Shown here piece after piece: positions 1,828 through 57,862 of a stretch of DNA of 64,000 nucleotides (position 1 is the first letter of the stretch; each line of letters opens with the position of its first letter). Both the position numbers and the translations under genes were made by a program. Source of the DNA: Natronomonas moolapensis 8.8.11 (GTDB lineage Archaea; Halobacteriota; Halobacteria; Halobacteriales; Haloarculaceae); the NCBI RefSeq assembly GCF_000591055.1, contig NC_020388.1:1488001-1552000 (forward strand), in the 5' to 3' direction. The notes below the pieces were generated by a model, which ran no database searches, was not told the origin of the DNA, and saw only the letters and a program-made list of their open reading frames with translations.

Positions 1828-1857
1828 TCGGTAAACAAGTGTGGAACGCTCTGAATT

Positions 1858-2583
1858 ATGAATACACACGAATTAACGGACGTTGGAATAAAAAGGGATG
1901 CGAACGAAGACGCCGTTCTGACAGCCTCAATCGGGGAACAGTACCTACTGGTTGTTGCGGACGGAATGGGAGGTCACGCTGCCGGTGACGTTGCAAGCGA
2001 TATTGCGACGACCCAAATCGAAGAGATTGTTGCGAACTCGCTTCCAGCTGAGGAAACCGAGTACGAAGCTATACTTGCAAATGCGATCTCTGCGGCTAAC
2101 AGAGAGATACATGCTCACGCTACAGATGACCCATCATTATCTGGAATGGGGACGACCGTCGTCGCGGCAATCATTGATGAAGCTGAGGCGACTGTCGCAA
2201 ACGTCGGTGATAGTCGGTGTTATCATATCGACGATGATATTGAGCAGGTAACCATTGACCAGTCGCTCGTCCAAGAGTTGATTGAAGCGGGTGAGATCAC
2301 GGAAGCTGAAGCTAAGGATCACCCACAGCGAAACGTCATCTCACAGTCGCTTGGAACAACGGACGATGTCGAGCCGGACTTCTATACGCAGGGTATCGAC
2401 GGGACGCTTCTACTCTGCTCTGACGGTCTTACTGAAGAAGTCTCCGACAGCAACATCGCAAAAATAGTTAGTGAGGAACCGACACTGACTGAGACGGCAG
2501 AAACCCTCGTTCACCGCGCAAATCAGAACGGCGGGAGTGATAATATAACCGTTGCAGTATGTACGAGATCTGAGGAAGAATGA
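1858..2583 (+). CDS. PP2C-family Ser/Thr protein phosphatase
   Basis: A 241-residue single-domain phosphatase close to the usual bacterial PP2C length. The metal-binding motifs are all present: RDANED near residue 13, VADGMGG near 37, ANVGDSR near 115, a DQSLV segment in place of the usual DHSLV, LLCSDGL near 180 and GGSDNITV near 225. It should be a cytoplasmic Mn/Mg-dependent enzyme that removes phosphate from Ser/Thr. It lies 30 bp after the FHA-like gene on the same strand and converges on the first kinase gene. The obvious inference is that it reverses the action of the three neighbouring kinases. Confidence 0.92.
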   Translation: MNTHELTDVGIKRDANEDAVLTASIGEQYLLVVADGMGGHAAGDVASDIATTQIEEIVANSLPAEETEYEAILANAISAANREIHAHATDDPSLSGMGTTVVAAIIDEAEATVANVGDSRCYHIDDDIEQVTIDQSLVQELIEAGEITEAEAKDHPQRNVISQSLGTTDDVEPDFYTQGIDGTLLLCSDGLTEEVSDSNIAKIVSEEPTLTETAETLVHRANQNGGSDNITVAVCTRSEEE

Positions 2584-2633: not shown

Positions 2634-5192
2634 CTATTGATACCTGTTGAGCAATTCCCGCAGGTCGTTCCTGAACAGCACAACTGAGTCGTATCTGTTA
2701 GATTTTTCTTTGGCCAATGCCGTCAGCAGGACCTGATCCAAGCCTTCCGGTACATCCGCAAGTTCGCTTGGTGGGGTTGGTTGTGTATGTAAAGCATTAT
2801 ACATCGCTTCTGCCGGCTCACCACTAAACGGTGGCTCTCCAGTAATCAAATTATAACAGACCGCGCCAAGTTGATAGATATCCGTAATATCGTCGGTTGC
2901 GCCATATTCGTCATCAAACTGCTCTGGTGCCGCGTAGTGGGGCGACATCCCTTCGACGCTTCCAGGATGTTCGAGCAAATGTTTCGATAAGCCCCAGTCA
3001 GCTATCTTTGGTACGTCCCATGCGTCTTGGACTGTACGAAACAGGATATTCTCAGGTTTTAAATCGAGATGCGCCACTCCTCGCCGATGTGCGTGGTGAA
3101 GCCCGTTTGTAATGGCAATACTAGTCCAGAGCGCTTGCTGGATATCCATCTCGCCATTCCTTTCGCCGAGATGTCCCCCGTCCATGTGCTCCATCGCAAT
3201 CCATGGCAGTGGATTGCTGCCATATTCTACGATACCGACAATATGATCATTGGAATCTAACTTGCTCCATATCTCAGCCTCTTTGAGCAGTCGTTCGATA
3301 TCATCAGTATGGAGCGTGCCATGCATTCGAGGCTCCTTGATTGCCAACGCTATATCCCCGTCGGCTGTCGGTAGTGTCGCCTTCATTACGTCGGCGTTCC
3401 CACCCTCCCCGATGGGTTCTCTATTCGTTAGCTTATCATATTCTACTTCCACACTAGGAACAGTTGGGATCTTATCCGGAGAATACAGGACCTTGCTTTG
3501 GGCCGTCTCCCTCTCTTTTGAGTTTAGTGTGAGCTCAGAAGTTGTGTCTAGTGATCTCTCCGATGCAGTGGTCTCTGGGGAGCTTGTTGTTTCAGTCTCC
3601 TCCATATCATCAGTATCTGTATTTTCGCCCTGTCTGGTCAGCCACCACTCTTTGACCCGACTGGGACTGAGGTATCCGAACAACACAGGGAGGACCTGAG
3701 CTGAACCATCGGTTGCTTGCTCTGTGCTCTCGTCCGGTTCCGTAGTATCATCTTCGTCAAACTCCTCGGCAAGCCACTCCTCAAACTCATCATCGGTAAC
3801 CGCATCTGCCTCCATACCGATTACTCCACCAAATGGCTCGTCGTTATCTGGAGTTTCCTCTTCAGTATCGTTTCCTCTTCGAGCAAGCCACCATAGACCA
3901 GCCCCCCCGATCCCAAGCCCACCAACTGCAGCGGGAAGAACGTTCTCTGCTTCCTCCGGGAGCACTCCAGGGCTAGCATCAAGATCTATATCGGGTACGC
4001 TATCCGCATCTATGCGTGGTCTGCCGGCCAGTATTCCAGCCTCTGTAAGCGCGGTCACTCCGTTGGTTGTCCCTAAATAGATATTTCCGTCAGCGATCGC
4101 CGGTGTGCTGTACGTTGCCCCAGTAACTTCGTATGACCACCTTTCGTTTCCATCAGATCTGTTTAATCCGTGAATGATACCCCGACTATCCAGTACGTAG
4201 ACTAGGTTACCAGCAATTGCGGGCTGAACATCGCCGGCGCGTATTTTATACTGCCACCGTACGTCGCCGTTTGAGGAATCCAGCGCATAAAGATCCTTAC
4301 CGATGACGAGCACAGTCTGCTCGGCTACACTTGCTGAGGAACTTCCGGAACCAGCCGTATCGAACCGCCACTTCTCGGTTCCCTCAGTTGTACTCACCGC
4401 GTGTAATATTCCGCCATCGTCGACAATATATACAGTTCCGTTCGCGACTGAAGGCGCGTTTTCAACTGCATTATCTGTCTCGTGGTACCACTTTTCAGAT
4501 CCTGTATCTGCAGAAAACGCATATAATCCAGTGTCGACTGAATCGCCGATATAGACGGTGTCATCAGCGACCGCTAATGACGAGCGGAGAAAGCTACCAG
4601 ATGGCGATGGTGACTCCCACTCCTTGGAGCCATCAGTAGCCGAAATGGCATACACATGATTGCCTCCACTAATATAAACAGTCCCGGCATCAACTCTCGG
4701 TTGGGTTTCGCCATTATTCAGTTCGTATGTCCACTGTTCGGTTCTATCATGTGTCGATAGCGCATATAGTGTTCCAGTTTCACCGTTTGGATCGCTGGCG
4801 ACGAAAACAGCGTTATTCGCGACAGAGGGCGATCCAAATGAAGTGTTAGTTCTGTCCCCAAATGTCCAGCGCTTGGTCCCGTCTTCCGTTGCCAGCGCGT
4901 AGAAACCAGAATCACCGCCAACGTAGACAGTTGCGCCAACAACTACCACGTCTGTAGTTATTCCCTGCGGACCAACATCCTCAAAGATCCAGGCCTGTCT
5001 GATGTCACCTGTTGGTCCAGTATTGCTTGCCGCATACCCCGTATTGGCGCTGATATATCCCGACTGGTGCCACCCTTCTGATATCGAACGGTCCTCAGCT
5101 ACGAAATCTGATGCTTGAAAAGGTGACCCGACAAAAACAGCCCCTCCTACAGACTGTAAGAACTGCCGACGGCCAGCCTTTTCATGAGCCAT
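2634..5192 (-). CDS. Receptor-like Ser/Thr kinase with exported PQQ beta-propeller
   Basis: About 852 residues from the ATG at 5192. A further in-frame start exists at 5261, but 5192 places a twin-arginine signal (GRRQFLQSVGG) at residue 6. PQQ-like repeats (W/Y-rich blades with DG-x-K/R-W motifs) fill about residues 40-400. A hydrophobic segment (LGIGGAGLWWLA) lies near 430, then an acidic linker, then a kinase domain from about 590 to the end. The kinase has a GEGGNADV loop, AIK lysine, HLDLKPEN catalytic loop and ADWGLSK in place of DFG. Topology is probably propeller outside and kinase inside, like bacterial PknD-type receptors. The propeller may bind a quinone-like or other ligand, which is inferred. 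It is convergent with the PP2C gene. Confidence 0.9.
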   Translation of the reverse strand: MAHEKAGRRQFLQSVGGAVFVGSPFQASDFVAEDRSISEGWHQSGYISANTGYAASNTGPTGDIRQAWIFEDVGPQGITTDVVVVGATVYVGGDSGFYALATEDGTKRWTFGDRTNTSFGSPSVANNAVFVASDPNGETGTLYALSTHDRTEQWTYELNNGETQPRVDAGTVYISGGNHVYAISATDGSKEWESPSPSGSFLRSSLAVADDTVYIGDSVDTGLYAFSADTGSEKWYHETDNAVENAPSVANGTVYIVDDGGILHAVSTTEGTEKWRFDTAGSGSSSASVAEQTVLVIGKDLYALDSSNGDVRWQYKIRAGDVQPAIAGNLVYVLDSRGIIHGLNRSDGNERWSYEVTGATYSTPAIADGNIYLGTTNGVTALTEAGILAGRPRIDADSVPDIDLDASPGVLPEEAENVLPAAVGGLGIGGAGLWWLARRGNDTEEETPDNDEPFGGVIGMEADAVTDDEFEEWLAEEFDEDDTTEPDESTEQATDGSAQVLPVLFGYLSPSRVKEWWLTRQGENTDTDDMEETETTSSPETTASERSLDTTSELTLNSKERETAQSKVLYSPDKIPTVPSVEVEYDKLTNREPIGEGGNADVMKATLPTADGDIALAIKEPRMHGTLHTDDIERLLKEAEIWSKLDSNDHIVGIVEYGSNPLPWIAMEHMDGGHLGERNGEMDIQQALWTSIAITNGLHHAHRRGVAHLDLKPENILFRTVQDAWDVPKIADWGLSKHLLEHPGSVEGMSPHYAAPEQFDDEYGATDDITDIYQLGAVCYNLITGEPPFSGEPAEAMYNALHTQPTPPSELADVPEGLDQVLLTALAKEKSNRYDSVVLFRNDLRELLNRYQ

Positions 5193-5294
5193 TGTATTCT
5201 TAATGTGAGCTAAGACAAAAAAGCTATTCTCATACAGCGCTGTAGAGCCATCAGATATCACCGTACTGTTTTTATCAGAACTCGACGAAAAAAT

Positions 5295-5496: not shown

Positions 5497-6771
5497 ATGA
5501 CTCTTAATCCAAACGAGTACGAACTGATCCCGGATCAAACGCTGGAATCGCCAGATATCGATATTGACCGCAATTCTCTGGAAGAATTGGAACATATCGG
5601 AAGTGGCGGAACAGCCGATGTGACGAAGATGCGGACGGAAAGCGGTACCGTAGTCGCACTCAAACAGCCACGCTTCCGGGAAACCCTCGACCATCGCACT
5701 ACGGACAGCTTCACCTCCGAGGCAAAAACATGGGCACAACTGGACGATATTACGGGCGTAGTTGACGTTATCGACTGGGGTTCAACGCCGGTTCCGTGGA
5801 TTGCGTTGGAGTACATGGATGGCGGGTCGCTTGCTGCCCGGATTGGGGAAACATCTATTGAGGAGTCTCTGTGGATTAGTTACTGCGTAGCCGACGCTGT
5901 TCACCAGGCACATCGGCGCGGTGTCGCTCACTTTGATTTAAAGCCTGATAACGTACTGTTCCGCTCAACTGCGACGAAGACATGGGACCTCCTGAAAGTG
6001 AGCGATTGGGGGCTTGCAAAGCAACTGTTACATGACTCACGCGATGTCAATGGGCTCTCTCCACGCTATTCGGCACCAGAACAGCTTGATCCCGACACCA
6101 GTGGGTCGCCGGATGATCTCACTGATATCTACCAGCTTGGCGTAATCGTATATGAACTCTTGACCGGTGAGCCGCCGTTCTCAGGGGATTCCCAAACGAT
6201 AATCAGCGGCCACCTCGCCGAGTCACCGGCACAACCCAGCAAAGTGAGCGACGCCCTGCCAACAGCTGTTGATACTGTCGTTGGAACGGCTCTCGCGAAA
6301 AAGAAAGCCGACCGGTACGAATCCATGCTTGATTTCCGTCGTGATATAGCGACACTATTCCGCGCTGTCGCGCTTGATGCTCCCGCTTCGTCTATTTCCT
6401 ACGACGATCAGTCGAAGTCATCCCCGGCTGCTGATTTTGATCCCTCGGTATCGGAAGACTCCAAGACTACCGTTGAGCCAGACGATCATTTCGCCGCTGG
6501 AAGCAACCTCCGGAACGACGCTGATTCTCCCGGTGTCTTAGATTCGATCCAAGAACACTCGAAAAGCGACGAGAACAGGAAGTTTCCTTGGCAGCAACGG
6601 GAGAATGCACCGGGATTGAATGACGTTGAACAGACCACCAGTCGCGAGGGGTCGCCTGCACTAGACGGTATGAAATCAAAAACAAAAGAGAATCATAAAG
6701 AGCAGTCGCAGGATTCGGCTCAAGTGCTGTCCATGCTCCTATCCGTATTAAAAAGGCTGTTTGGTAGTTGA
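5497..6771 (+). CDS. Soluble Ser/Thr protein kinase
   Basis: 424 residues. The kinase domain covers about residues 28-285: Gly loop GSGGTADV near 34, Lys in VALKQPR, HFDLKPDN near 144, SDWGLAK near 169, SPRYSAPEQ near 190 and DIYQLG. The rest is an acidic, low-complexity tail ending in a short hydrophobic stretch (VLSMLLSVLKRLFG) that could touch the membrane. No signal peptide or clear transmembrane segment is seen, so it is probably cytoplasmic. The catalytic loop lacks the HRD arginine and has DWG for DFG, as in the other two kinases. It is divergent from the PQQ kinase, with the MITE in the shared upstream region. It probably works in the same pathway; its substrate could be the FHA-like or AAA protein. 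Confidence 0.9.
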   Translation: MTLNPNEYELIPDQTLESPDIDIDRNSLEELEHIGSGGTADVTKMRTESGTVVALKQPRFRETLDHRTTDSFTSEAKTWAQLDDITGVVDVIDWGSTPVPWIALEYMDGGSLAARIGETSIEESLWISYCVADAVHQAHRRGVAHFDLKPDNVLFRSTATKTWDLLKVSDWGLAKQLLHDSRDVNGLSPRYSAPEQLDPDTSGSPDDLTDIYQLGVIVYELLTGEPPFSGDSQTIISGHLAESPAQPSKVSDALPTAVDTVVGTALAKKKADRYESMLDFRRDIATLFRAVALDAPASSISYDDQSKSSPAADFDPSVSEDSKTTVEPDDHFAAGSNLRNDADSPGVLDSIQEHSKSDENRKFPWQQRENAPGLNDVEQTTSREGSPALDGMKSKTKENHKEQSQDSAQVLSMLLSVLKRLFGS

Positions 6772-6912: not shown

Positions 6913-8189
6913 CTCAGCTTTGCACGTTGAAGTAGTAGCGTGACGAAGGAAGTGACAAGGACGGATGATGCCGATTACAGACTTCTTATCGTGCACGCGC
7001 GTGTTCGACGAGTTTGAGTCGTTGTCTCCGGCACAACGTCATCACGCGAAAACTTACGCCACAGGTCTTGTTGCGGCCAGCAACAAGACCGTGGCGGGCA
7101 TCGCACGCGAAGTTCTCCCAGCACAGGGCAAGCGTGCTCTCAATAAGTTCCTCACTGAGTACGACTGGGACGAACGGCAGTTCAACCACGAACGCCTCGA
7201 AGAACTCCAGAAACACGGTGAGACACGGTGGTCGAAAAAGGGCTACATCATCCTTGACGACACGATCACCGAGAAAGCCGGGGACGAAGTCCCCGGCGTC
7301 GGGCGCTTCTACGATCACGCTGAAGGTGACACCGTCTGGGGTCAAGACCTCATCTACGCCTTCTACGCTGACGACAAAACCGCCTATCCACTCACCTTTC
7401 GCCTCTATGAACAGCAAGACGAGGATAACCAGAACCACGACACAAAGTACGATTTGGCCCGTGAGATCATCACTGAACTCGAAAACGAGGTAGGTGTCCC
7501 GGCGGATACCTACCTCTTCGACTCGTGGTTCGCCCACGATTCTGGCCTCCCTGAACGCATCGAATCCTACGACAAGGACTGGATCGGCCCGCTCCGGAGC
7601 AACCGCAAGGTGACCTACGCCGGCGAGGAAATTCGCGTCGATGCGCTGGCAGAGCGCATCGACACGACTGAACGCGACATCGAGGACGATACCTATCACA
7701 TCTGGACGAAGAAGCTTCCCGTCTCCCAGCTGGGAGACGTGAAGCTGGCTATTGCCGAAAAAGAGGCCGAAGAGGACGAAGAGAACCCGGTCAAGTACCT
7801 CGCTACGAACAAAATTGACGCACCGACCGAGCACGTGATTCGCTCCTACGGGATGCGATGGCGAATCGAGACGTTCTTCGAGGACTCGAAACAGGATTTA
7901 GGCTTGGGAGACTGCGAGATGCAGACCGAAGAAGGTGCCAGTCGGCACTGGCACCTTCTGATGGCTGCCTACAGTCTCGTTCGTCTTGATCTTGAGTCGA
8001 GCGCCTTGGGGACGGTTCGCTCGAAGGCGTCATCGCTTCGAGCGAACCTCGAACATTCCCTGAAAGAAGCCGTCTACAACCTTCTCTCGTGGGTTCGAGA
8101 CAACGATGACCGAGGCGTCGACGATCTCATGGAAGAGATTGATCACCTCTTCGTTCACTCAACTGCTGACGCTAACGTGCAAAGCTGAG
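6913..8189 (+). mobile_element. IS4/IS701-type insertion sequence, intact
   Basis: A 1277-bp element with perfect 16-bp terminal inverted repeats CTCAGCTTTGCACGTT (6913-6928 and, inverted, 8174-8189). It is flanked by a 7-bp direct repeat TTATGTT (6906-6912 and 8190-8196), which marks a single, recent insertion. It carries one transposase gene whose stop codon lies within the right terminal repeat. The element sits between the soluble kinase gene and a small reading frame. Confidence 0.92.
6965..8188 (+). CDS. IS4/IS701-superfamily DDE transposase
   Basis: 407 residues, a full-length transposase. The N-terminal helical domain is followed by an RNase-H-like DDE core: Asp in IILDDTITEK, Asp in YLFDSWFAHD and Glu in the YGMRWRIETFFEDSKQ signature (the Y-R-E-K type motif of the IS4 superfamily). 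It would cut and paste the surrounding element. A second ATG directly follows the first, so the start could be 6965 or 6968. The exact family (IS701 or another IS4 branch) is my best reading, not confirmed; the 7-bp target duplication is longer than usual for IS701. Confidence 0.9.
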   Translation: MMPITDFLSCTRVFDEFESLSPAQRHHAKTYATGLVAASNKTVAGIAREVLPAQGKRALNKFLTEYDWDERQFNHERLEELQKHGETRWSKKGYIILDDTITEKAGDEVPGVGRFYDHAEGDTVWGQDLIYAFYADDKTAYPLTFRLYEQQDEDNQNHDTKYDLAREIITELENEVGVPADTYLFDSWFAHDSGLPERIESYDKDWIGPLRSNRKVTYAGEEIRVDALAERIDTTERDIEDDTYHIWTKKLPVSQLGDVKLAIAEKEAEEDEENPVKYLATNKIDAPTEHVIRSYGMRWRIETFFEDSKQDLGLGDCEMQTEEGASRHWHLLMAAYSLVRLDLESSALGTVRSKASSLRANLEHSLKEAVYNLLSWVRDNDDRGVDDLMEEIDHLFVHSTADANVQS

Positions 8190-8403: not shown

Positions 8404-9056
8404 GTGTCAATCGTCGTCGGTGTCTGCTTCGGCGTTGCTGAAACAGTTTGAAAAACTGGTAGTTCGTCGTTTTACCTCTCGAAGGACACGTTTGACGCTA
8501 TTCCGATTTCCATGGCGTTCATATCTGAAATCGAGGCTGTGGCGGCGACAGACGTCTTTCAGTGAGTGCGAGCCATCTACGAGAAATACCGCGTCGTCAA
8601 CGTCATGTTTCTCGCGGAGTTCGGCAAAGAACGCGTGAGAGATTACCTTGTTTGTCGTCGGTTCAGGCGTTGTGTACAGTAATTTGCTTGTCTCAGGATC
8701 GACAGCAGCGTACAGCCAGTACTGCTCATTATTGAGTCGGATCATGGTCTCATCCACCGCAACGTGATCCGGATTCCGACCAGATTCGGGCTGTAGATCT
8801 GCCCTCTGAACCCAGTTGTGAATAGTAGATTGAGCTCGACTGACACCGAATATCTCAAGAATAGAAATGGTATTCGAAAGTGATAGGCCAGCTAAATGGA
8901 GTTGAATACCAAGCTTCATCAGTAATCTCGGTGTCGCTTCTCGCTCCACAAAACCTAATTCGATCTCGTCCAAACAGCCGTTGAGGTGGGCGTTTTTGGG
9001 CATAGAGCACTCAAAAAACGTACCGCCTCACTTTTCACTCTTATCTGAACACCGCC
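8404..9056 (-). mobile_element. Truncated IS6-family element (copy 1)
   Basis: The right end GGCGGTGTTCAGATAAG (on the minus strand, ending at 9056) matches the two complete 697-bp copies at 36663-37359 and 52421-53117. The left end is missing: similarity stops near 8404, about 44 bp before the expected end, so the terminal repeat and the end of the transposase gene are lost. No target duplication can be found. It is a fossil copy lying between the IS4-type element and the halocyanin-kinase gene. Confidence 0.88.
8407..9003 (-). pseudogene. IS6-family transposase, truncated and mutated
   Basis: 198 codons against 211 in the two intact copies; the C-terminal WLRSFAFAWNQLI segment is gone. The first two catalytic Asp are visible (AVDETMIRL and LVDGSHSL). 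The Glu of the DDE triad, in NSVERVFRE of the intact copies, reads NSVKRVLRE here, a Glu to Lys change. The protein is therefore probably inactive even apart from the truncation. Confidence 0.85.
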
Positions 9057-9104
9057 GCCGAACTGATGCAAATATTTGTAAACTACCTCCTAATAGTGTG
9101 CTTC

Positions 9105-11147
9105 ATGCCGAGTTTAGGAACGGGGGGCCCTCCAGAAACAATCCCATCTACCTCGGCACTTTCAGTTAGTTGGGATGATTTTTCAAACGGGAAACTCATC
9201 GGGCAAGGTGGTAACGCTGACGTGTATCAGGTTACTGTTACTCGGGACGGCAATACAGTCCCAGTTGCGATCAAGCAGCCGCGTTTTCAAGGCACGCTTC
9301 ATTCAGACGCCATAGACCGGTTTCGAGATGAGGTCCAAGTCTGGTACCAACTTGACGATCATGATCATATTGTAAGCCTGTTTGACGGGGGAACCGACCC
9401 GCTGCCGTGGTTGGCGATGGAGTACATGGACGGCGGGAATCTCCAGGGCTTGCTCAATGATGGAAGGCTTCCAGTGGAGCAAGCACTTTGGGTTGGATAC
9501 TGTATCTGTCAAGCGGTCCACTACGCTCATCGGCACGGCGTTGCCCATCATGACCTCAAACCCGCTAATATTCTATTTCGACAATACGGCGATAGCTGGA
9601 TGGTCCCGAAGGTAAGCGATTGGGGCCTCGCACGCATGATGCTTGATGAAACTGGAAGCGTTGACGGTCTCTCACCGCACTATTCGGCTCCAGAACAGTT
9701 TGACGCCGGAAAGTATGGCTCTCCAAATGACCAGACCGATATTTATCAACTCGGAACGGTGCTCTACGAGTTGCTAACTGGGAGACCACCATTCGAAGGC
9801 TCAATGACTGAAGTAATGCAGAGTATTCTCTCTCAGGACCCAACTCCTCCGAGCGATATCGCTAATCTTCCGACAGCGGTTGACGAAGTCATTATGCCTG
9901 CTCTTAAAAAAGAGCAGACTGCTCGCTACGACAGTATCGTCTACCTCCGAGATGGTGTCAAAAACCTAATTGAATCAACGACACAGGACACTATCGATAC
10001 GGATGGGTCATTAAAAAACAGTGTTCAGACATCGAATGGGGCCAGTGAAACAACAGGGAATAGCGGCCAGCAGGCTCAGCAAACAAAAGCCCCGGAGCCA
10101 GAACGAACCAAGCAGGAAACAGCCAACACACGGTCTAACGCGGGAACTACTGCTACAACAAAGAATACTCAATCATTAGTTAATCGACGATCACTGCTGG
10201 CAGTACTTGGTGCAGGGGCAGTAGGTCTCGGGGGCTGGCGAATTAGCGCAGGTACTTCTGACTCTCCGCCATCAAGTGCAGATAGCGGTGGAGGCGAAAC
10301 AGTAGTAAGCAGTAGCAATGACGGTGGTAACGATGATCGAGTCGAAAATGGTGTCGGCAACGGCGGTGCCGAAGGCCCCGAGGCCCGCGCGGAAGCGTTC
10401 GTCAGCGATAACGAGGCGAACCTCTATGGGGGATCCCTCGAGGACATGACCGGCCAGGACGAGGTCGTCATCGAGACGGGTGCCGGCGAGAACGGTTTCG
10501 CGTTTAGCCCCTCGGGCGTGGTCGTCTCCACCGGGACGAACGTCGTCTGGGAGTGGACCGGCGAGGGCGGCGCACACAACGTCGTCTCCGAGGACGGCAG
10601 CGACTACGAGTTCGAGAGCGAACTCACCGACGAGGCGGGCTACACCATCGAGCAGACCGTCGACGAGGCCGGTGCGGTCCTCTACGCCTGTATCCCCCAC
10701 CGCGCGCAGGGTATGTACGGCGCTGTCGCCGTCGTTGATGACGGTCTCGTGATAACTGATAACGGTGGCTCAGAGAGACCAGAGGCTCGAGCTGAAACGT
10801 TCGTCAGTGACAACGAGGCAAATCTCTACGAGGGATCGCTTGATGACATGACTAACCAAGACGAGGTCGTCATCGAGACGGGGGCCGGGGAAAACGGCTT
10901 CTCATTTAATTCCCCGGGAATGGTCGTCTCTACCGGGACGACCATCGTCTGGGAGTGGACCGGTGAGGGCGGCGGACACAACGTCGTCTCCGAGGACGGC
11001 AGCGACTACGAGTTCGAGAGCGAACTCACCGACGAGGCGGGCTACACCATCGAGCAGACCGTCGACGAGGCCGGTGCGGTCCTCTACGCCTGCATCCCCC
11101 ACCGCGCGCAGGGTATGTACGGTGCCATCGCTGTCGTTGATGAGTAA
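9105..11147 (+). CDS. Ser/Thr kinase fused to two exported halocyanin domains
   Basis: 680 residues from ATG 9105, chosen over 9066 because the first 13 residues are hydrophobic and unlike other kinase starts. The cytoplasmic kinase covers about residues 25-285: GQGGNADV loop near 31, AIKQPR, HHDLKPAN near 147, SDWGLAR near 171. A Gln/Thr-rich linker leads to an internal twin-arginine segment NRRSLLAVLGAGAVGLGG near 360. Two halocyanin-type cupredoxin domains follow (about 424-545 and 558-680). Each keeps the copper ligands: His in G-A/G-HNVV, then Cys, His and Met in YACIPHRAQGMYG. The layout fits a membrane receptor with the kinase inside and two blue-copper domains outside. A copper- or redox-sensing role is inferred. 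The upstream region is formed by the truncated IS6 copy. Confidence 0.92.
   Translation: MPSLGTGGPPETIPSTSALSVSWDDFSNGKLIGQGGNADVYQVTVTRDGNTVPVAIKQPRFQGTLHSDAIDRFRDEVQVWYQLDDHDHIVSLFDGGTDPLPWLAMEYMDGGNLQGLLNDGRLPVEQALWVGYCICQAVHYAHRHGVAHHDLKPANILFRQYGDSWMVPKVSDWGLARMMLDETGSVDGLSPHYSAPEQFDAGKYGSPNDQTDIYQLGTVLYELLTGRPPFEGSMTEVMQSILSQDPTPPSDIANLPTAVDEVIMPALKKEQTARYDSIVYLRDGVKNLIESTTQDTIDTDGSLKNSVQTSNGASETTGNSGQQAQQTKAPEPERTKQETANTRSNAGTTATTKNTQSLVNRRSLLAVLGAGAVGLGGWRISAGTSDSPPSSADSGGGETVVSSSNDGGNDDRVENGVGNGGAEGPEARAEAFVSDNEANLYGGSLEDMTGQDEVVIETGAGENGFAFSPSGVVVSTGTNVVWEWTGEGGAHNVVSEDGSDYEFESELTDEAGYTIEQTVDEAGAVLYACIPHRAQGMYGAVAVVDDGLVITDNGGSERPEARAETFVSDNEANLYEGSLDDMTNQDEVVIETGAGENGFSFNSPGMVVSTGTTIVWEWTGEGGGHNVVSEDGSDYEFESELTDEAGYTIEQTVDEAGAVLYACIPHRAQGMYGAIAVVDE
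10581..11122 (+). repeat. Near-identical tandem halocyanin domain repeat
   Basis: Bases 10581-10720 and 10983-11122 are the same over 140 bp except for one third-position change (T at 10691, C in the second copy). The period is 402 bp, or 134 codons. The N-terminal parts of the two domains differ more. This points to a recent tandem duplication or gene conversion of the copper-binding half of the domain. Confidence 0.85.
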
Positions 11148-11483: not shown

Positions 11484-11512
11484 GGGATGGTCTCCAGACC
11501 GGAGACCATCCC
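11484..11512 (+). promoter_or_regulatory. Hairpin before the IS66 transposase start
   Basis: GGGATGGTCTCC (11484-11495) and GGAGACCATCCC (11501-11512) make a perfect 12-bp stem with a 5-nt loop, 13 bp before the likely start codon at 11526. It could limit translation from read-through transcripts, as in several ISs, or act as a terminator against incoming transcription. Confidence 0.55.
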
Positions 11513-11525
11513 GTCTCGCCTGTTC

Positions 11526-12923
11526 ATGACCTCTTCGGAACCTACCAAGGAAGAGATCCTTGAGCGTCTGGTCGCACTTGAGAAAGAGAACGAGGAACTT
11601 CGAGAGGAGAACAAGCGGCTCAGAGCCAAGCTTCGGTGGTACGAGGGACCCCATACACCACCGAGCAAAGACCAATCGGACCAGGAGGAGTCGTCCTCGT
11701 CCGATGGGGACGAGGACGACGAACAACCACGTACTGACGGTGGCACGCCTGGCCGAAAGTCCGGACATGACCCGGAATGGCGCGACGCTCCTGACCCGGA
11801 TCAAGAGATCGAGGTTACCTGTGACTGCTGTCCAGACTGTGGTGAAGCGTTCGACGAGTCGGCGGGCGTCAGCCCCCGACTCGTCGAGGAACTCCCGGAT
11901 CCACAGCCACCAGAGGTCACACAGTACAACCGCCATCACTACGAGTGCCACTCCTGTGGTGCCGAGACTGTCGCCTCACACCCCGACTGCCCCGATGAGG
12001 GGCAGTTCGGGGTGAATGTCATCGCACAGGCGGCGCTCTCTCGGTACGATCACCGCCTTCCCTACCGGAAGATCGCCGATCGCTTCGAACAACTCCACGG
12101 ACTGGAGTTCACGGGTGCGTCCGCGTGGCACGCGACCGAGCGCGTTGCACGCGCCGGTCGCTGTGAATACGAGCAGATTCGCCGTCAGATCCAGCAAGCC
12201 GACGTTGTCCACGTTGACGAGACTGGAATTAAACGCGACGGCGAACAGGCATGGATCTGGACGTTCACCACCGAGGAGCACACGCTGTACGTGGCTAGGG
12301 AGAGTCGAGGAAGTGATGTTCCCGCGGAAGTCCTCGGCGAGGACTTCGCGGGAACAGTCGTCTGTGACGGGTGGACGGCGTATCCGGCTTTCAGCAGCAA
12401 CCTCCAGCGGTGTTGGGCGCATATTCTACGGGAGGCTGAAGACGCCGCCGAGAAACAGACGGAAGGCGAACCGATCTACCGTGCCCTCAAACAGCTGTAC
12501 GTCGCTCTCCAGACCCGGCTGGAGAGCGACTTGACAGTCCGCGAGCGAGCAGAACTCCAACGTGTGGCGCGGAGAGAGCTTGAATCGCTGATAGAACGGT
12601 CAGTTCCTGACGGACCAGTGGCAACACTACTCGGCAAGATCGAAGGAGGCCTCGACCACTGGCTCACCTTTATCGGTGAGCCAGCGGTCTCCCCAACGAA
12701 CAACGCCGCTGAAAATGCGCTCCGTGAGCCAGTGGTTCTCCGGAAAATCATCGGAACACTCCGGAACGACCGCGGTATGTTCGTGCATGAGACGCTGCTG
12801 TCCCTGCTGGCGACGTGCCGCCAGCAGGGACGCAATCCCTACGACGAGTTCAAGCGAATCGCTCGAAACAACGAGATGATTTCACGAGCTCAGACCGTAC
12901 CCGCTGTTGCATCCTCGGGGTAA
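11526..12923 (+). CDS. IS66-family transposase
   Basis: 465 residues from ATG 11526; an earlier in-frame start at 11487 lies inside the hairpin and is unlikely. The order is an N-terminal coiled coil rich in Glu/Lys/Leu, a linker with Ser/Asp runs, a zinc-ribbon (CDCCPDCG ... CHSCG), then the DDE core: Asp in VVHVDETGIKRDG, Asp in VVCDGWTAYP and Glu in SPTNNAAENALREPVV. The closing segment matches the IS66 C-terminal region. It moves the surrounding element. All key residues appear intact. Confidence 0.93.
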   Translation: MTSSEPTKEEILERLVALEKENEELREENKRLRAKLRWYEGPHTPPSKDQSDQEESSSSDGDEDDEQPRTDGGTPGRKSGHDPEWRDAPDPDQEIEVTCDCCPDCGEAFDESAGVSPRLVEELPDPQPPEVTQYNRHHYECHSCGAETVASHPDCPDEGQFGVNVIAQAALSRYDHRLPYRKIADRFEQLHGLEFTGASAWHATERVARAGRCEYEQIRRQIQQADVVHVDETGIKRDGEQAWIWTFTTEEHTLYVARESRGSDVPAEVLGEDFAGTVVCDGWTAYPAFSSNLQRCWAHILREAEDAAEKQTEGEPIYRALKQLYVALQTRLESDLTVRERAELQRVARRELESLIERSVPDGPVATLLGKIEGGLDHWLTFIGEPAVSPTNNAAENALREPVVLRKIIGTLRNDRGMFVHETLLSLLATCRQQGRNPYDEFKRIARNNEMISRAQTVPAVASSG

Positions 12924-57787: not shown

Positions 57788-57862
57788 TGCTCCGTCAGGG
57801 ATTCGAACCCTGGTCCTTGCCGTGAGAGGGCAAGATGATTGGCCGGACTACACCAACGGAGC
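57788..57862 (-). tRNA. tRNA-Glu (CTC)
   Basis: The minus strand folds as a full cloverleaf: acceptor GCTCCGT/ACGGAGC, a D arm, anticodon stem CTTGCC/GGCAAG with loop CTCTCAC (anticodon CTC), and T arm CAGGG/CCCTG around TTCGAAT. The discriminator base is A and CCA is not encoded. It is the right-hand attachment site of the island; its 3' part is repeated at 13241-13282. Confidence 0.96.

Follow-up and report, generated by a model that had tools for sequence, protein, structure and literature searches.

A Ser/Thr protein kinase fused to two halocyanin domains in Natronomonas moolapensis: a candidate redox- or copper-responsive receptor

Results

The fused gene resides in a low-GC island rich in protein kinases

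Natronomonas moolapensis 8.8.11 possesses one chromosome of 2.9 Mb with a GC content of 64.5% (PMC3623002). The DNA studied here, referred to below as the window, is a stretch of 64,000 nucleotides from this chromosome (NC_020388.1, positions 1,488,001 to 1,552,000), and it includes part of an island of about 50% GC that extends from approximately 1459 to 1501 kb and contains the gene under study (Table 1). About eight kinases are encoded in the island: four of them are placed behind Tat-like N-terminal parts, mostly PQQ-type propellers (44-48% identity among the propeller kinases of window and island), one is fused to Hsp70 and one to TPRs; a PP2C phosphatase and several transposases are found there as well. 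The Hsp70-linked protein, located upstream of the window (1089 amino acids; G000:C1:1474012-1477278, minus strand; loci L061/L062), is an unusual chaperone-kinase fusion in which an Hsp70 region (Pfam, 4.6e-192) is joined at its C-terminal end to a Ser/Thr kinase of the same family. Encoded near the kinases is a coiled-coil protein of about 670 amino acids (L062, 9117-11114, minus strand; no Pfam match), which reappears on the Halovenus contig considered below (L064, 4157-6253, plus strand) and is a possible conserved partner.

Table 1. Features of the fused gene and of its neighborhood, in window coordinates
Feature	Position	Strand	Evidence and remarks
PP2C-type Ser/Thr phosphatase	1855..2580	+	Pfam PP2C_2, 3.4e-16
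Paralogous kinase, reverse domain order	2634..5261	-	Tat signal, PQQ/BamB-type propeller, TM, C-terminal kinase; PQQ_2 3.6e-40, Pkinase 1.7e-29
Paralogous soluble kinase without ectodomain	5497..6771	+	Pfam
Transposase genes flanking the fused gene	6965-8188, 8407-9003, 11487-12923		DDE_5-like; IS240-like; IS66
Fused kinase-halocyanin gene	9105..11147	+	680 aa from ATG 9105; stop 11147
Kinase domain	9183..9926	+	Pfam Pkinase, 3.4e-36, 125 bits
Kinase catalytic residues	9273-9275, 9552-9554, 9618-9620	+	VAIK Lys; HHD Asp; DWG Asp
Linker	9927..10184	+	Low-GC; Ser/Thr/Gln-rich, disordered, predicted cytoplasmic
Signal-anchor	10185..10250	+	RR 10185-10190, then LLAVLGAGAVGLGGW; no lipobox Cys
Halocyanin domain 1 (hal1)	10386..10748	+	TIGR03102; 1BXU alignment; cupredoxin-fold model
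Copper ligands of hal1	10575-10577, 10689-10691, 10698-10700, 10713-10715	+	His, Cys, His, Met
Halocyanin domain 2 (hal2)	10788..11144	+	TIGR03102
Copper ligands of hal2	10977-10979, 11091-11093, 11100-11102, 11115-11117	+	His, Cys, His, Met
Gene-conversion tract, 3' half of hal2	10930..11118	+	Identity to hal1 and the native gene about 90-100%, in the core 97-100%

The IS240-like element is a truncated copy that precedes the fused gene by about 100 nt, and another copy is present near G000:C1:1464482. A provirus has been described at nt 1501283-1545787, beside a partial tRNA-Glu (PMC3623002). This interval corresponds to positions 13283-57787 of the window, and ARAGORN places a tRNA-Glu at 57788-57862. 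The published provirus begins about 2.1 kb beyond the fused gene; relatives of the gene were absent from viral contigs, and phage records contained only distant bacterial-phage kinases, so that we rejected the notion that it is virus cargo.

One uninterrupted reading frame encodes the kinase and both halocyanins

The open reading frame on the plus strand (9066-11147) comprises 693 codons when counted from its first ATG, which adds 13 residues to the protein starting at ATG 9105 and would give it a hydrophobic N-terminus. We prefer the latter start, as did the original prediction, because the alignment with the Halovenus homologue begins at the same Met (M.SLG.GGPP). Some 27 nt before 9105, the A/T-rich element caaatatttgtaaa suits, as judged by eye, a leaderless haloarchaeal start. 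A scan for promoters of the bacterial type gave nothing relevant.

The encoded protein has the order Ser/Thr kinase, linker, internal twin-arginine anchor, halocyanin 1 and halocyanin 2. Pfam, NCBIfam and the uninterrupted frame thus bear out the single-chain architecture that had been proposed from the letters of the DNA, and the E-values of the domain matches rule out chance. Downstream of residue 270, the frame has no ATG, GTG or TTG until position 10446, which is already within hal1; since no start precedes hal1, kinase and halocyanins belong to one chain, and two separate genes can be dismissed. An assembly artefact is unlikely as well, given the single contig of 2,912,573 bp and the same architecture in independent genomes. 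A structure model of the full-length protein had a pLDDT of 39, too low for use.

The kinase domain finds its best match among solved structures in PknB (9.7e-34), with the VAIK Lys and the Asp residues of the HxD and DxG motifs aligned. Lys57, Asp150, Asn155 and Asp172 align with their PknB counterparts and are invariant among related kinases. In the window and Halovenus kinases the motifs appear in the variants HHD and DWG, with all catalytic residues kept. The predicted Ser/Thr kinase is hence apparently an active, PknB-like enzyme of the Hanks type, as far as its motifs tell. The equivalog model for PASTA-type Stk1/PknB proteins (NF033483) scored 202.8 bits, mostly from the kinase part, and stayed below its cut-off of 450.

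Both halocyanin domains retain a type-1 copper ligand set

Halocyanins are normally electron carriers. Two stretches of the fused protein match Pfam Copper-bind (4.4e-28) and the NCBIfam halocyanin model TIGR03102, the latter with 262.2 bits and well above the curated cut-off of 93.8. Among solved structures, hal1 is closest to the plastocyanin 1BXU (4.4e-10), whose copper ligands line up with its His, Cys, His and Met, and all four ligands of hal1 and hal2 align either with those of 1BXU or with each other; the complete His-Cys-His-Met sets that had been read in both domains therefore stand. The same type-1 set, HCHM, is present in 100 of the 109 halocyanin domains that we compared. A model of hal1 built from three sequences (pLDDT 67) returned cupredoxins as its best matches (Z 5-6.7; 2.2-3.3 Å), which is moderate evidence when taken alone; together with the plastocyanin match it supports a cupredoxin fold. 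By analogy to the known families, hal1 and hal2 should bind copper. Tandem arrays of three to four halocyanin domains occur elsewhere (L039, 736-2394; L070, 1739-3022), with His-Cys-His-Gln in every copy, a replacement of Met by Gln like that of stellacyanin-like sites.

The internal anchor has features that fit a Tat signal

The fused protein contains the internal motif NRRSLLAVLGAGAVGLGGWRISA, and the twin-arginine membrane segment foreseen in the original prediction is thus present: NRRSLL is followed by a Gly-rich, weakly hydrophobic stretch with a KD value of 1.43. The RR is found about 360 residues into the chain and not, as in the usual Tat criterion, at a free N-terminus. A twin arginine in front of a weakly hydrophobic TM was found in 14 of 14 proteins with halocyanin, solute-binding, Peripla_BP_6 or PBP-like tails (KD about 1.4-1.8, with L174 falling below the scan threshold of 1.4). 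One protein of unknown tail combined RR with a KD of 2.16, and four proteins with other tails, three carboxypeptidase-regulatory-like and one short, were devoid of RR and had values of 2.4-3.0. The proteins compared are mutually related, so that these counts are not independent; they cover at least two deep branches. In known dual-targeted proteins, low hydrophobicity routes such segments to Tat (PMC5449189). Tat export of the halocyanin ectodomain is accordingly what these anchor features make likely, and the placement of the halocyanins outside the cell, as originally suggested, fits them; the topology with the kinase inside and the halocyanins outside would follow that of known families.

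Fusions of kinase and halocyanin recur in related microbes

Among about 465 genomes of the order, at least six, belonging to three lineages, encode a kinase-halocyanin fusion; this number is a lower bound, as the larger searches scored the best two or three candidates of each genome. The architecture consequently has relatives, and the fear that it might be a chimera not conserved elsewhere does not hold. The window gene, with intact kinase motifs and two HCHM halocyanins, is accompanied by a fusion in a Halovenus MAG (L013 = L064 = L088) whose kinase is 56% identical, its closest relative, and which has the same order of kinase, RR anchor and halocyanin, the latter single and with a His-Cys-His-Asp set. 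This Halovenus protein (L064, 6288-8003, minus strand) has an HHH_5 helix-hairpin-helix region, weakly L32e-like, between kinase and anchor. A third fusion (G141) combines two HCHM halocyanins with a degenerate kinase, whose VAIK motif is without its Lys (VRIF) and which reads HFDLTPES. The remaining three (G164, G379 and G337) stem from one genus, of groups f4/g25, that we label Halorubrum-like; these proteins of 972-979 amino acids (L085, 2816-5752, minus; L198, 3267-6188, minus; L199, 3451-6366, plus) consist of a kinase-like domain, an RR anchor, a halocyanin and a solute-binding domain. Their kinase motifs read VAIR and HLALHPDC, and the domains may be pseudokinases. A thermosome gene adjoins the fusion in L085 and L199.

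In a tree of 88 kinase domains, the window and Halovenus kinases are sisters (SH-aLRT 99), the other fusions fall into a distant clade, and the presence of halocyanins requires at least five changes. These data indicate that the combination of kinase and halocyanin arose at least three times in related microbes. Within the Halorubrum-like genus, orthologues from five genomes (G408, G176, G207, G761 and G444) carry the solute-binding domain and no halocyanin, which in loci L200-L203 is missing exactly between the anchor and the solute-binding domain. Such presence and absence at one position appears to be the behavior of a swappable ectodomain. Two further proteins, in which kinase and RR anchor are joined to Peripla_BP_6 (L209, 1357-3630, minus) or PBP_like_2 (L210, 1866-3851, plus), are candidate solute-sensing archaeal receptor kinases.

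Searches in other directions yielded no additional fusion. Large halocyanin reading frames elsewhere (500-880 amino acids) contained no kinase; PLSDB matches were kinase-only or halocyanin-only, with none covering 80%; and no kinase-cupredoxin fusion was present in a small sample of 75 kinase-related loci, nearly all bacterial. In the openly licensed literature, we found no paper on kinase-halocyanin fusions.

The fused gene is a mosaic

A sharp break in base composition at about position 10,350, which had escaped the initial reading of the sequence, divides the fused gene: GC3 amounts to 0.26-0.66 across kinase and linker and to 0.86-0.94 in hal1. The DNA from 10359 to 10748 is 93% identical to the genome's native stand-alone halocyanin gene (L005), which encodes a Tat lipoprotein at G000:C1:2181396 and has a GC3 of 0.85; at the protein level, the identity is 93% across 104 columns. 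This close similarity of hal1 to the native gene had likewise gone unnoticed in the initial reading. In hal2, the 5' half reaches only about 60-90% identity per 40-nt block, and its dS to the native gene is about 0.97, against 0.15 in the 3' half. As the sister kinase also carries a halocyanin, these patterns are most simply read as a recent conversion in which the native halocyanin gene was the donor and a pre-existing fused gene the recipient. Part of the exact fused sequence is hence young, owing to recent patches from the resident halocyanin gene. The dN/dS values are 0.24 between hal1 and the native gene (0.039/0.161) and 0.13 between hal1 and hal2 (0.062/0.466); these low values argue that the sequences have been kept functional, with the proviso that part of this history may predate the fusion. 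For the halocyanins of the Halorubrum-like trio, dN/dS is likewise below 1 (0.21-0.48).

Discussion

In its layout, the fused protein resembles bacterial receptor kinases of the PknB/StkP type, in which an N-terminal cytoplasmic Hanks-type kinase is followed by a juxtamembrane linker, one TM and a C-terminal outside sensor. It differs from them in its predicted copper ectodomain in place of PASTA repeats, its twin-arginine anchor, and the replacement of Arg by His in HxD (HHD) and of DFG by DWG. With the Natronomonas lipoprotein halocyanins (L005 and L256) it shares membership in the TIGR03102 family, the four ligands and a Tat motif before the domain; however, the free proteins have an N-terminal Tat signal with a lipobox Cys (LAGC), whereas the fused protein has an internal signal without Cys, preceded by a kinase, and two copies of the domain. 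An internal twin arginine, a weakly hydrophobic TM and an outer cofactor domain are also known from the actinobacterial Rieske protein and other dual Sec-Tat proteins (PMC5449189), but the examples of that paper have at least two TM helices before the Tat motif, where the fused protein has none, only a soluble kinase and a linker. The PQQ-propeller kinases of the island have a related kinase domain, a Tat-type outer domain and one TM in the reverse order, with the Tat signal and propeller N-terminal and the kinase last. Finally, the Halorubrum-like proteins possess a kinase-like domain, an RR anchor and an HCHM halocyanin like the fused protein, but differ by degenerate kinase motifs, an extra C-terminal solute-binding domain and a separate branch in the kinase tree.

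We give an even chance to the reading that the fused protein is a single-span receptor Ser/Thr kinase with a paired blue-copper halocyanin ectodomain, assembled by Tat and gated by copper or redox state. The N-terminal kinase would remain cytoplasmic, the internal twin-arginine segment would serve as an uncleaved signal-anchor, and the folded, probably copper-loaded halocyanins would be exported by Tat while the kinase stays inside. The ectodomain would exchange electrons with free-halocyanin partners, bind them, or load copper; its state would alter the dimerization or the activity of the kinase; and the PP2C phosphatase of the same island would reverse the kinase output. We infer that the kinase would respond to redox or copper state, with redox exchange the more probable input of the two, since hal1 is almost identical to the cell's own electron carrier. 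Because it is interchangeable with ligand-binding domains, the outside copper domain would most simply be an input module.

We count in favor of this receptor reading the domains and their ligands on one chain, the sister fusion in Halovenus, the two further lineages with such fusions, the exchange of halocyanins at one position in the Halorubrum-like genus, the weakly hydrophobic RR anchors, the low dN/dS values, and the PP2C phosphatase and about eight kinases nearby. Against it we count that large parts of hal1 and hal2 derive from recent gene conversion, that the halocyanin sequence differs between the window gene and its closest relatives, that in Halovenus Asp replaces the Met ligand, and that degeneration of the kinase motifs affects four of the six fusions found, which leaves two genomes (window and Halovenus) in which a kinase with intact motifs is joined to a halocyanin. 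Two negative findings weigh in the same direction: mostly by-eye reading of the genes beside the fused gene and of the listed neighbors of the other fusions recognized no copper or respiratory genes, and we found no proven precedent for a Tat signal that is fully internal and preceded by a soluble domain.

The mosaic structure of the gene raises the question if it is a recent chimera devoid of any signaling role, generated when the resident halocyanin was pasted into a kinase gene of an IS-rich island, with a product that is neutral or being lost. The 93% identity of hal1 to the native gene, the abrupt rise of GC3 from about 0.3 to 0.9, the half-converted hal2, the transposases on both sides with a remnant just 100 nt upstream, and the absence of such a fusion from the other 19 genomes of the genus are all in line with this explanation. 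We nevertheless regard it as unlikely: the sister kinase already has an RR anchor and a halocyanin, so that conversion probably renewed an existing domain; no damage is seen in the frame, the catalytic residues, the RR or any of the eight ligands; the dN/dS values are low; and other kinase lineages are fused to halocyanins as well. Quite unlikely, in our estimation, is that the halocyanins are tethered electron carriers or docking modules which, without any sensing, bring the kinase to a respiratory or copper partner that it then phosphorylates. Given the near-identity of hal1 to the free native halocyanin, hal1 has probably retained the docking surface and the potential of that protein, two copies would fit multivalent docking, and the pseudokinase versions retain the halocyanin; yet kinase and ectodomain are predicted to reside on opposite sides of the membrane, and at the same position halocyanins are swapped with solute-binding, Peripla_BP and PBP-like domains, which are input modules.

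The chances are slim that the kinase cluster as a whole serves as an anti-virus island in which the halocyanin kinase senses disturbances of membrane or respiration linked to infection. A provirus adjoins the low-GC, IS-rich region, many of its kinases have varied input domains, and PADLOC models of the PD-T4-6 and MAD6 kinases match. These matches, however, reflect generic kinase similarity, as the fused kinase scored 109 bits with the curated MAD6 model (NCBIfam) and thus fell below the 460 required; the neighboring genes gave weak coiled-coil matches, and no complete system was recognized among them.

Returning to the receptor kinase gated by copper or redox state, we note that this combination of domains originated three times or more, which suggests that the fusion is a candidate for a redox- or copper-responsive receptor of a kind not described before. 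Tentatively, and with less than even confidence, we envisage a new receptor class that has a fully internal Tat signal and in which a pre-folded halocyanin, copied from the cell's own and kept similar to it by gene conversion, taps extracytoplasmic electron transfer (or the copper supply) and passes this on to the cytoplasm through phosphorylation.

The kinase-halocyanin protein is a real observation, and its copper/redox interpretation is plausible on sequence grounds. A twin-arginine signal after a soluble kinase of 300 residues recurs in about 15 proteins with folded outer domains, and such anchors make it testable whether Tat can use a signal without a free N-terminus or preceding Sec-inserted helices. 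The fused gene also exhibits a route of domain renewal, the conversion of a fused domain by a resident stand-alone gene. To our knowledge, blue-copper proteins are electron shuttles and not sensor domains of kinases, and the inputs of archaeal Ser/Thr kinases are poorly known. If the redox or copper state of the halocyanins gates the kinase, the fused protein would provide a direct link, within one protein, between the archaeal respiratory surface and cytoplasmic phospho-signaling, and it would reveal what at least one archaeal Ser/Thr kinase responds to.
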